DNA of 64,000 nucleotides from Exiguobacterium sp. s146. GTDB taxonomy: Bacteria > Bacillota > Bacilli > Exiguobacteriales > Exiguobacteriaceae. Made by a program: the position numbers and the translations under genes. Numbering within the stretch: position 1 is the stretch's first letter; each line of letters starts with the position of its first letter. Location: contig NZ_JACSMA010000001.1 of the NCBI RefSeq assembly GCF_018618415.1, forward strand, positions 868,001 through 932,000. The letters are read 5' to 3'. Under the pieces are notes generated by a model. The model saw only the letters and a program-made list of their open reading frames with translations. It made no database searches and was not told where the DNA came from. This document shows, in pieces, positions 2,004-7,815 of the stretch.

Positions 2004-2750
2004 ATGACGAAAATCACGTCTACGAAAAGTGAGACGATTAAGCGCTTAAAGCGGTTAATGACGAAAAAAGGCAGACAAGAGTCCGGACAATTTTTGGTCG
2101 AAGGCGAGCATTTGGTCGACGAAGCCATCCGTGCCGGACGTCTCGTCCAGCTGATTATGGGGGAGTCGTATACCCCGAAAGGATCATGGCGCCTCGATGA
2201 GATGCCGGTCCTCGAGCTATCCGACCATGTGGCCGATTTGTTATCAGAGACGGAGAAAACGCAAGGTGTTTTCGCTGTCGTCAAGATGGCCCCGGTCGAA
2301 CGGAAAATGAAGCATGTGCTCGTCCTCGATCGCATCCAAGACCCGGGTAACCTCGGGACGATGATTCGGACGGCCGACGCGGCCGGCTTTGATACGGTCC
2401 TGCTCGGAAAAGGGACGGTCGACCCGTTCAATGCCAAAGTCGTACGAGCGACACAAGGCTCCTTGTTCCACGTCAACGTGAGCTCGGTCGATTTGCTTGA
2501 GACGTTGCCTGAGTTGAAGAGCGAAGGCTTCCAGATTTATGGTACGGCGCTCGCTAAAGCGACGTCGTACGAACAAGTCGATTTCAGTGACAAGGTCGCG
2601 CTCGTCATCGGCAACGAGGCACAAGGCGTGCATCACGACGTGCTCGATCTATGTGACACACGCGTTCATATCCCGGTACTCGGCGATGCTGAATCGTTGA
2701 ATGCAGCTGTCGCGGCCGGTATTCTCATGTATCGCATCGCATTACAATAA
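2004..2750 (+). CDS. TrmH/SpoU family RNA 2'-O-methyltransferase (YsgA-like)
   Basis: A 248-residue SPOUT methyltransferase. It has an N-terminal substrate-binding part (about 1-95) and the knotted SpoU domain: LDRIQDPGNLGTMIRTADAAGF (motif 1, about 108-129), VALVIGNEAQGV (motif 2, about 197-208) and IPVLGDAESLNAAVAAGILMYR (motif 3, about 224-245). It should transfer methyl from SAM to a ribose in rRNA or tRNA. The target nucleotide is not evident. The positional equivalent in B. subtilis is ysgA next to pheS. No terminator is seen before the pheST T-box leader. Confidence 0.85.
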   Translation: MTKITSTKSETIKRLKRLMTKKGRQESGQFLVEGEHLVDEAIRAGRLVQLIMGESYTPKGSWRLDEMPVLELSDHVADLLSETEKTQGVFAVVKMAPVERKMKHVLVLDRIQDPGNLGTMIRTADAAGFDTVLLGKGTVDPFNAKVVRATQGSLFHVNVSSVDLLETLPELKSEGFQIYGTALAKATSYEQVDFSDKVALVIGNEAQGVHHDVLDLCDTRVHIPVLGDAESLNAAVAAGILMYRIALQ

Positions 2751-2787
2751 CCTTGTCAGCACTGACGAATCGTGATAGGTTAATTAC

Positions 2788-3034
2788 ATCGAACAAAATA
2801 ACGAATAGACGTTGAAAGAGCATAGTACGCGAACTACCGAACGAGTACAGGGAGCATGGGCCGAGACTGCGAGCCGATGCCTTGGTCGGCGCTGAATTCA
2901 CTCTCGAGTCGTGTTGGAGACAACACCGGGGTAGCATCCCGATACCGATGCTCTCAAGTGGGCCGATTTCGGCCAAGTAGGGTGGTACCGCGATTATTCG
3001 TCCCTTCAGTCATCGACTGAAGGGACTTTTTTTT
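2788..3034 (+). promoter_or_regulatory. T-box riboswitch, phenylalanine-type, controlling pheST
   Basis: The leader contains the T-box consensus AGGGTGGTACCGCG (2979-2992) that pairs with the tRNA acceptor end. It ends in a terminator made of a 12-bp stem (3000-3011 with 3015-3026) and eight Ts. The stem I region carries GAA-TTC-A, so the specifier codon is TTC (2897-2899), matching phenylalanyl-tRNA synthetase downstream. Uncharged tRNA-Phe should favour the antiterminator and turn pheST on. Confidence 0.92.
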
Positions 3035-4087: not shown

Positions 4088-6463
4088 ATGTTATTATCAA
4101 AAAAATGGTTGAATCAATATATTGATGTATCCGATTTGAGCGGAGAAACGCTCGGCGACTTAATCACGAAAAACGGGATTGAAGTCGAGAGCGTCGTCAG
4201 CCGGTCTGAAGGCTTGTCGGGACTCGTCGTCGGACACGTCCTCACGTGCGAGAAGCATCCGGAGGCCGACAAATTGAACGTGACGACGGTCGATATCGGT
4301 GCGGACAGCCCGGTCCAAATCGTCTGTGGCGCGCCGAACGTGGCCGCCGGTCAGCACGTCATCGTGGCGACCGTCGGCGCGCGTCTCCCGGGACTGAAGA
4401 TCAAGAAAGCGAAGCTGCGCGGCGTCGAGTCGCAAGGGATGATTTGCTCGCTCGAGGAACTCGGGTTCGAGAAGAAGCAGATTCGTGAAGATGAGCAGGA
4501 CGGCATTCACACGTTCCGCGAACCGGTCGAAGTCGGGGCTGACGTCATCCGCCTGTTAGACCTCGACGATGAAGTGATCGAGCTCGGTTTAACACCGAAC
4601 CGCTCGGACTGCTTGAGCCTTTACGGAATCATTCATGAAGTCGCGGCCATCCTCGAACGTCCATACACATTACCGGCTGCCGACGTGACGACAGATGTCG
4701 CGAACACGGTCAGCGTTCGTCTCGAGACGGACAACTGTCCGTATTACGCGACTCGCCGTGTCGACGGCGTCGTCATCGGTGACTCGCCGCAATGGTTGAA
4801 AAACATCTTGATTGCTGAAGGCGTCCGTCCGATCAACAACGTCGTCGACGTGACGAACTACGTCATGCTCGAGCTCGGTCAACCGCTTCATGCGTTCGAT
4901 ACGGCGAAACTCGGAACGACGATTGCTGTTCGTCAAGCACATGACGGGGAAGAAATCGTCACGCTTGATGACGTCACGCGCACGCTCGATGCCTCGATGA
5001 TGGTTATCACCGACGGCGAGAAGCCTGTCGCCATCGCCGGCGTCATGGGTGGAGCGAACACTGAAGTCGATGCGACGACGTCGAGCATCATCCTCGAGTC
5101 GGCCTACTTCGTACCGGCATCGGTCCGTAAGACGAGCCGTGTACTCGGCTTACGTTCAGATTCGAGTGCCCGCTTCGAAAAAGGGGTCGATCCGGAACGC
5201 CTGCAACTGGCGCTTGACCGTGCGGCTGAACTCATCGTCGAAGTGAGCGGTGGCACAATCAGTGACATCGTCGTGGCTGGGGACAAAGCCTCGGCGGCAC
5301 GGACGATTGACGTCTCGGTCGCTTATATCAACCATCGACTCGGAATGGAGCTCGAGCAAGCGACGATCGTCCGCATCTTGGAACGACTCGGTCTCGATGT
5401 GACCGGGGACGAGACGTTGACGGTCCATGTACCATCGCGTCGTCCTGACTTAGAGTTGCCGGCTGATATCACGGAAGAAGTGGCACGCCTCTACGGCTAT
5501 GACAGCCTTCCGTCGAGCCTTCCGGCGTCACACTCGAAAGGGTACCTCCCGAAAGAGAACGTGTTGCGTCGTCGCGTCCGTCGTATCCTACAAGGCGCAG
5601 GATTGTCGCAAGCCATCACGTACTCGCTCACGAGCGTCGAGAACGCCTCGCGCTTCAGTGGGGCCGACTTGGCACAAGTGAACTTGGCGATGCCGATGAG
5701 CGAAGAGCGTTCGGTGCTCCGGACATCGCTCATCCCAGGTCTGCTCGAGGCGGCACGTTATAATACGTCGCGTCAACAAGCGAACGTACGGTTGTATGAG
5801 ACAGGGCGTGTCTATGTCGAACAAGGCGAGACGTTGCCACGTGAAACGGAGCGGGTCGCCGGCGTATTGACGGGACTCTGGTACGATCATCGTTCACAAG
5901 GCACACGTGTCCCGGTCGACTATTTCGTCGCCAAAGGTGCCGTCGAGACGCTCTTGTCTGCGCTACGCATCGAAGCGACGTATGAGGCGGCCGTCATTGC
6001 GGATATGCACCCAGGTCGTACCGCAAACGTGCTCATCGATGGACGTGTCATCGGTTACGTCGGACAAGTCCACCCGGGCGTGTCCAAAGACGTGTACGGG
6101 TTGAAAGAAGTATACGTCTTCGAACTTGACTTGGACGTGTTGCAACAGACTGCCGAGCTCATCTATGAAGATGTGCCACGTTTCCCATCGATCACACGCG
6201 ACTTGGCGCTCGTGTTGAAACGGGATATCCCGGCCGGTCAAGTCGAAGCGACGATCAAACAGGCGGCTGGACCGCTCCTGATTGACCTCGCCTTGTTCGA
6301 TGTCTATATCGGGGAGAACGTAGGGGACGACGAGAAATCAATCGCCTTCTCGCTCAAATATCAAGATCCGACCCGCACGCTTCAAGATGAAGAAGTGACG
6401 GCGTCTTATGAAGCGATTCTCACTGCCGTGCAAACGGCGCACGGTGCGGAAGTTCGCGCATAA
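4088..6463 (+). CDS. pheT: Phenylalanine--tRNA ligase beta subunit
   Basis: A 791-residue beta subunit. It has an N-terminal EMAP/tRNA-binding OB fold (about 40-150), a B3/B4 editing domain (about 210-385, with LGQPLHAFDTAKLG and SDSSARFEKGVDPE), a B5 domain, a catalytic-like core, and a C-terminal ferredoxin-like anticodon-binding domain (about 700-791, with PSITRDLALVL). The length is close to that of Bacillus homologues. It is co-transcribed with pheS under the T-box and is followed by a strong bidirectional terminator. Confidence 0.97.
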   Translation: MLLSKKWLNQYIDVSDLSGETLGDLITKNGIEVESVVSRSEGLSGLVVGHVLTCEKHPEADKLNVTTVDIGADSPVQIVCGAPNVAAGQHVIVATVGARLPGLKIKKAKLRGVESQGMICSLEELGFEKKQIREDEQDGIHTFREPVEVGADVIRLLDLDDEVIELGLTPNRSDCLSLYGIIHEVAAILERPYTLPAADVTTDVANTVSVRLETDNCPYYATRRVDGVVIGDSPQWLKNILIAEGVRPINNVVDVTNYVMLELGQPLHAFDTAKLGTTIAVRQAHDGEEIVTLDDVTRTLDASMMVITDGEKPVAIAGVMGGANTEVDATTSSIILESAYFVPASVRKTSRVLGLRSDSSARFEKGVDPERLQLALDRAAELIVEVSGGTISDIVVAGDKASAARTIDVSVAYINHRLGMELEQATIVRILERLGLDVTGDETLTVHVPSRRPDLELPADITEEVARLYGYDSLPSSLPASHSKGYLPKENVLRRRVRRILQGAGLSQAITYSLTSVENASRFSGADLAQVNLAMPMSEERSVLRTSLIPGLLEAARYNTSRQQANVRLYETGRVYVEQGETLPRETERVAGVLTGLWYDHRSQGTRVPVDYFVAKGAVETLLSALRIEATYEAAVIADMHPGRTANVLIDGRVIGYVGQVHPGVSKDVYGLKEVYVFELDLDVLQQTAELIYEDVPRFPSITRDLALVLKRDIPAGQVEATIKQAAGPLLIDLALFDVYIGENVGDDEKSIAFSLKYQDPTRTLQDEEVTASYEAILTAVQTAHGAEVRA

Positions 6464-6466
6464 CTT

Positions 6467-6505
6467 AAAAAATGGTGTCCACACGAGGTGGGCACCATTT
6501 TTTAT
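6467..6505. terminator. Bidirectional terminator between pheT and the convergent transporter gene
   Basis: AAAAAATGGTG..CCAC (6467-6482) pairs with GTGG.CACCATTTTTT (6488-6503). An A run on one side and a T run on the other let it serve both converging genes. Confidence 0.88.
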
Positions 6506-7518
6506 TATTGAACTTCGAGTGCCAAGTCGCCGAACTTTGTCCAACCGACGAGGCATGTCACTTTATACAAGACGAGCGTGACGACGGCCGGAAGGACGAC
6601 TCCGGTCCCGACGAAGATGAGAAACGCGTCCATGCCTTGCGCGGCAAGGATGTTGAGCGGCGCAATCAATGAGTTGAGCCCGAGTCCCGCAATCTCATAA
6701 GGCACTTCGAGTGAGAAGACGAGTGTCGCGATCGGTGCGCTGATCATCGCTGCGATGAACGGCGGCATGAGAACACGAGGGTTTTTGACGACGTTCGGGA
6801 ACTGAACTTTCGGTGTGACGAAGAACGAGGCGACCAAACCGCCCGGATCTGTTTGACGATATGCCATGAGTGTGAAGCCGACGAACTGGGCCGTACATCC
6901 GATCAACGCGGCGGCACTGGCGACCGGGTCGAGTTGAAGTGCGATGGCGAGGGCAGCCGATGAAGCCGGCGACATGAGCATGACACTGAATACGAGCGCG
7001 ATGACGAGCGATGTCGCGATTGGCGACGTATTGACCGACGCGGTGATGCTAGCGCTAATCGAGTTGATAAGCGGTGTCGTGACGGCGGCTGCGCCGACGC
7101 CGACGATGCCGCCTCCGAGGACGGCTGTGACCGGGACGACCATCATATCGAATTTCGTCTTGCCGAGGACACGTTTACCTAACCATACCGCAGCCGCTGC
7201 TGCGATCAAGGCGCTGATTGGTTGACCCGGAACGAGGACGAGCCCGCTCTCGGTCGCTTGGAGCGCCGCACCACCGACGGTTGCCGCAATCATCGAGCTG
7301 AACAAAATGAGCGTGTTGCCGCCGAGCTGATAAGCGACACCGGCACCGAGAGCCGGGGCGAGCAATGATTTCGCGACTTGCCCGATCAAGACGAGTGTCT
7401 CGATGCCGGCCATCTTCCCAATCGTTTCAATCAAGAGTCCGACCCCGAGCGTGACGAGGACGGCGCTTGCCATTCCTGCTGATATTTTGATCATTCGATC
7501 CATTGCGTACTGTTTCAC
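6505..7518 (-). CDS. PTS EIIC-type (EIIC_2 family) membrane transporter
   Basis: A membrane protein of about 338 residues with eight or more hydrophobic segments and many small residues (for example GVAYQLGGNTLILFSSMIAA and PVTAVLGGGIVGVGAAAVTT). It resembles the stand-alone EIIC_2 family. No EIIA, EIIB or other PTS partner is nearby, so sugar phosphorylation is unproven and the substrate is unknown. Upstream on this strand are a short leader peptide and a terminator, so expression is probably attenuated. The start is ambiguous. AGAGGAG (7529-7535) lies 9-10 bases before GTG 7518, which I prefer. ATG codons at 7524 and 7527 are very close to the ribosome site, and an extension to 7623 would cross the terminator. 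Confidence 0.7.
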   Translation of the reverse strand: MKQYAMDRMIKISAGMASAVLVTLGVGLLIETIGKMAGIETLVLIGQVAKSLLAPALGAGVAYQLGGNTLILFSSMIAATVGGAALQATESGLVLVPGQPISALIAAAAAVWLGKRVLGKTKFDMMVVPVTAVLGGGIVGVGAAAVTTPLINSISASITASVNTSPIATSLVIALVFSVMLMSPASSAALAIALQLDPVASAAALIGCTAQFVGFTLMAYRQTDPGGLVASFFVTPKVQFPNVVKNPRVLMPPFIAAMISAPIATLVFSLEVPYEIAGLGLNSLIAPLNILAAQGMDAFLIFVGTGVVLPAVVTLVLYKVTCLVGWTKFGDLALEVQ

Positions 7519-7551
7519 TTCCATCATCTCCTCTATGTGTGTCAATCCAAT

Positions 7552-7577
7552 AAAAAAACCTATCCGGATGGGATAGG
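7552..7577 (-). terminator. Terminator (attenuator) between leader peptide and transporter gene
   Basis: On the minus strand CCTATCC (7577-7571) pairs with GGATAGG (7565-7559) and runs into seven Ts (7558-7552). It lies downstream of the leader peptide and upstream of the transporter ribosome site, the usual place of an attenuator. A second hairpin, GGCGC (7601-7597) with GCGCC (7580-7576), overlaps the left arm of the terminator by two bases and could compete with it. Confidence 0.7.
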
Positions 7578-7659
7578 CGCGTCGGTCATTCCATGAGCGC
7601 CTCGTCCGAAACCATCGAAACAAGGGCCCAAAAATTCGTCTCGGTCATCGAGTCGATTT

Positions 7660-7716
7660 TTAGTCCCTCAGTCGAATAATAATCAGTAGGCCGTGTTGCG
7701 CATGGGTTTTCATCAT
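7660..7716 (-). CDS. Candidate leader peptide of 18 residues, rich in Leu/Ile
   Basis: Reads MMKTHAQHGLLIIIRLRD then TAA. GGAGGAG (7729-7723) lies 6 bases before the first ATG. A run CTA-CTG-ATT-ATT-ATT gives two Leu and three Ile in a row, as in amino-acid attenuator peptides. A terminator follows about 80 bases later, just before the transporter gene. A weak promoter (AATCAA 7772-7777 and AGAGTA 7749-7754 as read on plus, 17-base gap) lies upstream. Translation and regulatory role are inference. Confidence 0.55.
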   Translation of the reverse strand: MMKTHAQHGLLIIIRLRD

Positions 7717-7815
7717 TGCCAGCTCCTCCGTTTGTTAAGATTTGTCTAAGAGTAACACGATGATTTTCAATAATCAATATTTTCTGAAAATTTATTTGAA
7801 AATATTTGGGAAGCG

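Follow-up and report, generated by a model that had tools for sequence, protein, structure and literature searches.

Architecture of the locus

On the minus strand of the window, i.e., the whole stretch of 64,000 nucleotides of Exiguobacterium sp. s146 DNA that was analyzed, an alpha/beta hydrolase gene is followed by a promoter-like stretch, a ribosome site, a short leader frame, a series of hairpins, an intrinsic terminator, and the gene of a stand-alone EIIC_2 membrane protein (Table 1). Judging from the sequence, GTG 7518 is the likely start of the EIIC_2 gene, since relatives begin at the same Lys; the downstream neighbor is convergent and, by reading of its sequence, putatively encodes PheT. 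The first-pass annotation of this DNA had described an 18-codon frame with a strong ribosome site, the run CTA-CTG-ATT-ATT-ATT, an alternative GGCGC/GCGCC hairpin, a proper terminator, and a ribosome site ahead of a membrane transporter without PTS partners. The frame with its GGAGGAG site, the codon run, and the terminator (CCTATCC/GGATAGG followed by seven T) were all recovered as described; the transporter ribosome site is likewise present, although it lies, as does the start codon, just outside the interval assigned to the element. The alternative hairpin exists as a possible pairing of GAGGCGC (from 7603) with GCGCCT (7580-7575) and touches the terminator, but instead of a simple choice between two hairpins we found four mutually exclusive pairings (segments 1:2, 2:3, and 3:4, and the terminator), of which GGCGC/GCGCC is one. 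The CodY-like box and the exact switching segments are additions to that earlier observation.

Table 1 Features of the leader and the EIIC_2 gene, with positions counted from the first letter of the window
Feature	Position	Strand	Basis or remark
CodY-like operator AATTTTCAGAAAATA, 1 mismatch to AATTTTCWGAAAATT	7778-7792	minus	motif scan
Probable promoter: -35 TTGATT (7777-7772), 17-nt spacer, -10 TACTCT (7754-7749)	7749-7777	minus	read from sequence
Leader ribosome site GGAGGAG	7723-7729	minus	read from sequence
Leader ORF MMKTHAQHGLLIIIRLRD and stop, 18 codons (ATG 7716 to TAA 7660)	7660-7716	minus	read from sequence
Regulatory codons CTA CTG ATT ATT ATT	7675-7689	minus	read from sequence, near leader end
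RNA segment 1, AGGGACUAAAAA	7657-7668	minus	pairs with segment 2
RNA segment 2, UUUUUGGGCCCUU	7622-7634	minus	partner is segment 1 or segment 3
RNA segment 3, GAGGCGCUC	7595-7603	minus	partner is segment 2 (one bulged C) or segment 4
RNA segment 4, GCGCCU	7575-7580	minus	3:4 is the antiterminator
Intrinsic terminator CCUAUCC-loop-GGAUAGG and U tract (seven T)	7552-7577	minus	sequence and consensus scan
Transporter ribosome site GAGGAG	7528-7533	minus	read from sequence
Stand-alone EIIC_2 membrane protein (PF13303), 337 aa, GTG start	6505-7518	minus	ORF list and Pfam

At the level of sequence, the locus has the short ORF, the ribosome site, and the cognate codon run near the end of the frame that characterize an attenuator. 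The leader ORF has a second ATG at 7713, and segment 1 overlaps its last two codons and the stop, while the last CCU of segment 4 is the beginning of the terminator 5' arm. Among the Leu codons of the window ORFs, CTA makes up 3.2% and CTG 9.8%, and the 43 window ORFs that reach 200 aa or more (17,500 codons) contain no run of five Leu/Ile residues. The consensus scan for terminators is weak evidence on its own, because it returned 5 terminator-like sites in the region against 2.2 expected. A second short frame (MTETNFWALVSMVSDEALME and stop; 7648-7586, minus strand) between the leader stop and the terminator was treated as chance, because its ATG is ATA in the close relative L005. An Rfam search of the window at gathering score gave no match, so the leader is neither a T-box (RF00230) nor rli60 (RF02414) by that score.

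The -35 element adjoins the CodY-like box, which is the sole site with at most two mismatches in the 64 kb (mean of 0.1 at two mismatches and 0 below in ten shuffles). The probable promoter, which scored below the cut-off of the consensus scan, is similar in relatives, and a CodY-like box with one to three mismatches occurs in all 44 distinct upstream stretches tested. The string AATTTTCWGAAAATT co-occurs with CodY in the published literature by text search. Both sequence-level marks of a CodY regulon member are present, namely an operator-like box at the promoter and a codY gene in the genome, and CodY would be expected to bind at the box before the leader.

Conservation in the Exiguobacteriaceae and copies before brnQ

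An orthologue of the EIIC_2 gene was found in 35 of 38 genomes of the family, and all 35 carry the leader (a plain DNA search detected it in 34, and inspection of the locus in G024 added the 35th); the three leaderless genomes (G003, G010, and G014) are also without the orthologue. The 33 distinct leader cores, 31 before EIIC_2 and two before brnQ, were aligned. The first-pass annotation had staked its reading on conservation of the frame, and indeed both the short frame and the Leu/Ile codons within it are kept in 33/33 distinct cores and recur in other Bacilli. In the EIIC_2 leaders, the C-terminus is kept ([LRQ]LII[IL]..RD and stop, with LLIII, [RQ]LIIL, or LLIIL), while the N-terminus varies in length and letters. 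Each of the 31 listed leaders has a ribosome site and an in-frame start ahead of its Leu/Ile run, and segment 1 lies at a constant distance from the Leu/Ile codons in the aligned cores. The terminator stem letters are invariant in the 33 distinct cores, as the extraction pattern demanded. The synonymous-site evidence is thin, because the third positions of CTG ATT ATT hardly vary.

Model R1, built from the 33 cores, recovers their 37 genome places by construction, and in the 38 genomes it matched 47 places: 35 before EIIC_2, 11 before brnQ, and one chance terminator behind a permease-like gene (G007:C1:298051). New to R1 were only this chance match and nine divergent brnQ leaders. Two EIIC_2 paralogues (35% and 26% identity) have no leader by R1, and Rfam detected no T-box upstream of paralogues, with 20 of the 39 fetched stretches searched, including six of eight paralogue upstreams. 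One distant paralogue (G031:C1:109447-110421) contains a single in-frame TGA.

A copy of the leader lies ahead of brnQ in 11 of 19 sister-genus genomes, and the product of brnQ in G026 had matches to PF05525 and to livcs (TIGR00796). The nine brnQ leaders outside the R1 training set scored 44.9-54.6 bits and read RLIVI (Leu-Ile-Val-Ile), with a Val codon added; their 3:4 pairing is GGCGUC/GACGCC, compared to GGCGCC/GGCGCC or GGCGC/GCGCC in EIIC_2 leaders. R1 had no match at the g1 brnQ genes, and the leader is absent from seven g2 brnQ upstream regions. By eye, the g1 brnQ promoters (L087-L092) show a CodY-like TTGTCAGAAAATTTAGT stretch, though without the leader.

Related leaders in other Bacilli

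A scan of genome contigs gave 80 PF13303 loci, 64 of them outside Exiguobacterium, with like leaders at 19 of these 64 (15 by pattern and 4 by eye). The leaders found by eye (L149, L153, L155, and L168) are partly degenerate; reading by eye covered 45 of the 64 upstream stretches, and scripts scanned all 64. The leaders share the series GGACUGAAAC, GUUUGAGUCC, GGCGCUCAAAC, and GCGCCCAUCC, followed by a terminator, and in most of them a short ORF containing an Ile/Leu run comes before the series. In L165 and L181 the pattern script gave neither segment 1 nor an ORF, and the ORFs were taken from a separate scan. While the letters of these leaders differ from those of the Exiguobacterium leaders, they can form the same pairings, and the bulged C in 2:3 is present as well. 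A script requiring a terminator and a short ORF selected 5/64 loci and 0/1280 shuffles. No such leader was found at the other 45 of the 64 loci.

In one Virgibacillus locus (L191), a T-box occupies the place of the leader before the PF13303 orthologue. It was found by motif, and its score of 61.2 bits (E 8.3e-13 over 731 bases) falls short of the gathering score, 93; the T-box search at gathering score covered 60 of the 64 loci, i.e., without L157, L158, L161, and L163. We read its specifier as CUC (Leu) from the sequence, by a rule calibrated on two T-boxes (UGG) before an anthranilate-synthase-like gene, which was named from reading of the protein. Other elements were noted near PF13303 genes. 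By eye, in L129, L144, L150, L159, L188, and other Bacillaceae, a cre-like TGAAAGCG[CT]TTTTA lies roughly 130-300 nt upstream of the gene, with a TTCTGAAT- or TGTCAGAAT-like stretch after it, whether or not the attenuator is present, which suggests, from sequence likeness, both CcpA and CodY input to these loci. L142, L144, and L156 have a selenocysteine tRNA gene (RF01852) immediately after PF13303 (about 4089-4206, minus strand), and in Shouchella L184, L185, and L192 a TPP riboswitch (about 2707-2842, minus strand) lies just upstream on the opposite strand.

Alignment A3 comprises 18 of the 19 non-Exiguobacterium PF13303 leaders (L149 omitted), and covariance model R2 was built solely from it. 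R2 detects the window leader at 59.7 bits. A scan of 398 Bacilli genomes at E ≤ 1e-4 gave 34 places, i.e., 31 PF13303 (29 Exiguobacteriaceae EIIC_2 and two other PF13303 genes), two brnQ, and one ilvD, and none elsewhere; at this cut-off, with stricter filters, the model failed to detect six of the 35 leaders before EIIC_2 and all nine divergent ones before brnQ. The match in G158 is not independent of A3 because it lies on the same contig as L155, whereas those in G374, G310, and the Exiguobacteriaceae are. Further, R2 was run at E ≤ 0.01 on 81 genomes of the ilvD-bearing family and had matches in 20, all 20 before ilvD. These ilvD leaders encode I/L-rich peptides and are named rli60 in Rfam. 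Conversely, RF02414 had no match over its 60-bit cut-off in the 38 Exiguobacteriaceae genomes; its best score was 27.1 bits, overlapping the G009 leader. The location of rli60 is before ilvD, while the window leader stands before EIIC_2 and, in relatives, before brnQ. As both score and target differ, the leader is a variant and not a member of RF02414.

Pairing changes and the predicted switch

In alignment A3, 96.7% of the cells of 2:3 are paired against a shuffled mean of 93.4% (0/500 shuffles as high), and 92.0% against 89.2% for 1:2 (0/500); each pairing has two pairs with two-sided change (as many in 69/500 and 86/500 shuffles, respectively). The corresponding values in A1 are 98.5% against 97.2% for 2:3 (0/500), with one two-sided pair in four sequences (pair count reached in 261/500 shuffles, cell count in 0/500), and 99.7% against 99.3% for 1:2 (8/500), with one two-sided pair in one sequence (9/500). 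In segments 2:3, four relatives have A-U in place of G-C on both sides at alignment columns 75/109, and letters of segment 2 co-change with their partners (A1 columns 37, 75, and 109). Compensatory changes in both hairpins had been proposed as a check from the outset: some pairs do change on both sides and stay paired, but the number of such pairs is above the shuffles in only one of the four counts, and all covariation counts are inflated by the relatedness of the sequences. Sliding the pairings by 1-3 columns left far fewer paired cells, except for 1:2 in A1 at +1 (84.5%). A1 says little on 3:4 and the terminator, because both are nearly invariant there.

An exclusive choice between terminator and antiterminator that is switched by ribosome position is, as far as folding predictions go, also present. 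For 33 leaders cut ahead of the terminator 3' arm, 3:4 beats 2:3 in 33/33 when the RNA is free from segment 1 on (P(3:4) 0.97). With the RNA free only from +3, +6, +9, +12, +15, or +18, 3:4 wins in 22, 4, 1, 1, 3, and 15 of the 33, respectively, so that 2:3 is preferred in 29-32 leaders from +6 to +15 and the outcome is split at +18, the position expected for the stop codon in the A site. The edge of the ribosome lies roughly 12 nt downstream of the first A-site base, and the call for each stalled codon depends on that value: a stall on CTG or on the first two ATT codons is predicted to turn the gene on, the third ATT to give a mixed outcome, the following codons to turn it off, and the stop codon to give a split one.

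Under a strict criterion (pairing of the terminator 5' arm >0.9 when segment 1 is free and <0.3 when it is masked), the flip occurred in 3/500 dinucleotide shuffles of the window core and in 15/33 real leaders. Among the divergent leaders, the flip is predicted in 18/30 (11/19 non-Exiguobacterium PF13303 and 7/11 brnQ), where L149 and L168, whose segments were misplaced in the fold, are uninformative and counted as not flipping. By a 3:4-specific measure it is predicted in 20/20 ilvD leaders (L222 and L224-L242); when pairing of the 5' arm with anything upstream was measured in nine of these, it rose on masking in L227 and L230. With the full terminator present, the equilibrium fold favors the terminator even with segment 1 free (mean 0.92), and the antiterminator would therefore have to act kinetically. 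In the untranslated leader, with an assumed start site, 3:4 is favored over 2:3 in 32/33, with a mean P(3:4) of only 0.52.

The EIIC_2 protein

The window protein matches Pfam PF13303 at 4.1e-86 and had no NCBIfam match. Its AlphaFold model (pLDDT 84) aligned best in VIA-align with bcMalT (6bvg; Z 18.0, rmsd 3.5, 307 aligned residues) and then PtsG (Z 17.6); the PTS EIIC structures range from Z 18.0 to 9.1 over 244-308 residues, and the next rows score 6.2. The best Foldseek E value was only 3.1e-3, and a PDB sequence search returned nothing up to E 1. By profile match and fold, the window protein belongs to the glucose-superfamily PTS EIIC proteins (PF13303). Sugar EIICs typically have a G[IVFLAM]TE-like stretch and a His. 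The window protein has no His, G[IVFLAM]TE is matched by 0/47 relatives, and, as first annotated, no EIIA/EIIB-like partner lies among the immediate neighbors. The missing His and motif would fit a transporter other than a PTS sugar permease.

Existing annotations call PF13303 proteins sugar PTS components or toxin regulators. Literature searches returned nothing on PTS_EIIC_2, on Exiguobacterium attenuation with a leader peptide, or on a T-box with leucine and PfoR. Judged by title only, many of the listed papers on PfoR with BCAA or CodY seem to concern pyruvate:ferredoxin oxidoreductase, and a few (Clostridium perfringens, group A Streptococcus) may concern something else. In the available part of PMC13227979, S. 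aureus pfoR (SAUSA300_0310) is listed under decreased fitness.

Proposed mechanism and alternative explanations

The computations reported here show the anatomy of the leader, its conservation, its pairing changes, the predicted flip, and the related leaders that precede brnQ and ilvD. With a probability of about 0.87, we read the leader as a ribosome-mediated transcription attenuator that reads Leu/Ile supply and controls the orphan EIIC_2 (PF13303) transporter, stacked on CodY repression. The ilv/leu-type, translation-coupled attenuation proposed in the first-pass annotation thereby gains support from conservation, two-sided changes, brnQ copies, and the retrieval of ilvD leaders. With ample charged tRNA, the ribosome would pass the Leu/Ile codons and cover segment 1; segment 2 would then be free to pair with segment 3, leaving segment 4 for the terminator, and transcription would stop. 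With Leu or Ile short, the ribosome would stall on the CTG/ATT codons, which precede segment 1 by 12-18 nt, so that 1:2 and then 3:4 could form; 3:4 would tie up the terminator 5' arm and the EIIC_2 gene would be transcribed. CodY repression would be layered on this attenuation.

The leader could instead be an arrest peptide responding to some free small molecule, in the manner of TnaC with Trp and of leaders carrying a +X+ motif such as RLR with macrolides. Such a peptide would account for the invariant C-terminal RD and stop in the leaders listed and for the RLR or RRR before the last residue in 16/16 same-genus leaders. However, RD and stop can be accounted for by segment 1 (AGGGACUGA), which pairs with segment 2, the leaders of the sister genus have LCMRD, LCTRD, LYTRD, or similar letters and lack the motif, with G024 (KKR) the one exception, the ilvD-leader peptides share the I/L run but not the RLR/RRR motif, and one PF13303 orthologue has a Leu-type T-box instead, which together make a codon-independent sensor highly improbable. 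Equally, one could regard the short frame as incidental to a protein- or ligand-binding, riboswitch-like RNA, given that DNA letters, including third codon positions, are strongly kept around CTGATTATT and segments 1-5 and that the antiterminator is predicted to be favored in untranslated RNA. Against this stand the ribosome site and in-frame start that persist despite the changing N-terminus, the swapping of residues among Leu/Ile/Val (LLIII, RLIIL, LLIIL, RLIVI) with the stop position kept, and the ilvD relatives, which are attenuators by experiment in the available parts of PMC5864092 and PMC5794164; we give this explanation very little weight.

A further alternative accepts the BCAA attenuator and touches the last step only: EIIC_2 may be a starvation-induced transporter of a non-BCAA substrate, e.g., a sugar, or may serve export. 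We consider this a serious possibility at somewhat less than even odds. It would sit well with the glucose-superfamily EIIC fold, and less well with the absence of EIIA/EIIB-like neighbors, of His, and of G[IVFLAM]TE, with the orthologue behind a Leu-type T-box, and with the observation that, among the 34 places of R2, the control element is common only to brnQ and ilvD besides PF13303 genes. The attenuator reading is compatible with either substrate, and we infer that the EIIC_2 transporter handles BCAA or a related compound; the early hint of an amino-acid-linked substrate is in this sense strengthened. More tentatively, PF13303 (EIIC_2/PfoR-like) proteins might be PTS-independent transporters of BCAA or related compounds that form one ancient Bacilli regulon with brnQ and ilv-leu, in which attenuator or Leu T-box leaders and CodY sites report Leu/Ile supply, a generalization about which we are rather more doubtful than confident. 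The attenuator, the one Leu-type T-box, and the CodY boxes nonetheless tie this transporter family to BCAA control, and the presence of attenuator relatives before known BCAA genes makes the role of the poorly understood PF13303 family testable.

Relation to known attenuators

The leader would work like Rli60/ilvD attenuation and is a variant with transport genes as new targets; what is new are these targets, i.e., the orphan EIIC_2 transporter and brnQ. This suggests that Rli60/ilvD-type attenuation, known for biosynthesis in Listeria and Staphylococcus, also operates over transport genes in several genera of the Bacilli. As far as described in the available part of PMC5864092, Rli60, the Listeria ilv-leu leader, is a BCAA attenuator proven by reporter and mutants and shares with the window CodY, a short leader with BCAA codons, competing hairpins, and a terminator; it governs ilvD biosynthesis, whereas the window leader would govern a transporter. 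Start-codon and ribosome-site mutants of Rli60 lower the ilvD transcript, i.e., super-attenuate, in the same excerpts, whereas the window fold predicts the opposite, and the antiterminator as drawn there consists of Rli60 segments 2 and 3 and the terminator of 3 and 4. The ilvD/ilvB motifs listed in the accessible text of PMC8632094 are from Veillonella and Leptospira, and the present leader does not appear in that text.

T-box leaders (RF00230) also mediate amino-acid-dependent antitermination, whereas the sensor in the window would be a translated leader. In the enterobacterial ilv/leu attenuators, a stall at regulatory codons decides between antiterminator and terminator, and these systems share with the window the regulatory-codon run and the choice of fold by the stall. 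In the window, however, the stall would leave segment 1 free to pair with segment 2, and the antiterminator would be 3:4, while in the classical arrangement it blocks 1:2 and 2:3 is the antiterminator. The switch of 1:2, 2:3, 3:4, and terminator, with some covariation, can be compared against published antiterminator models. According to the available part of PMC5794164, the S. aureus ilvD leader counterpart responds to Leu and resembles the window in its 26-aa leader with an Ile/Leu run, CodY repression of the same promoter, and a terminator before the gene, while its target is biosynthesis instead of a transporter. Its antiterminator, as given in those portions, is formed by GAAUGG pairing with the U tail and does not disrupt the terminator stem, whereas that of the window would tie up the 5' arm. 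The 1:2/2:3/3:4 switch that fits the 20 ilvD leaders likewise differs from the S. aureus antiterminator published there.
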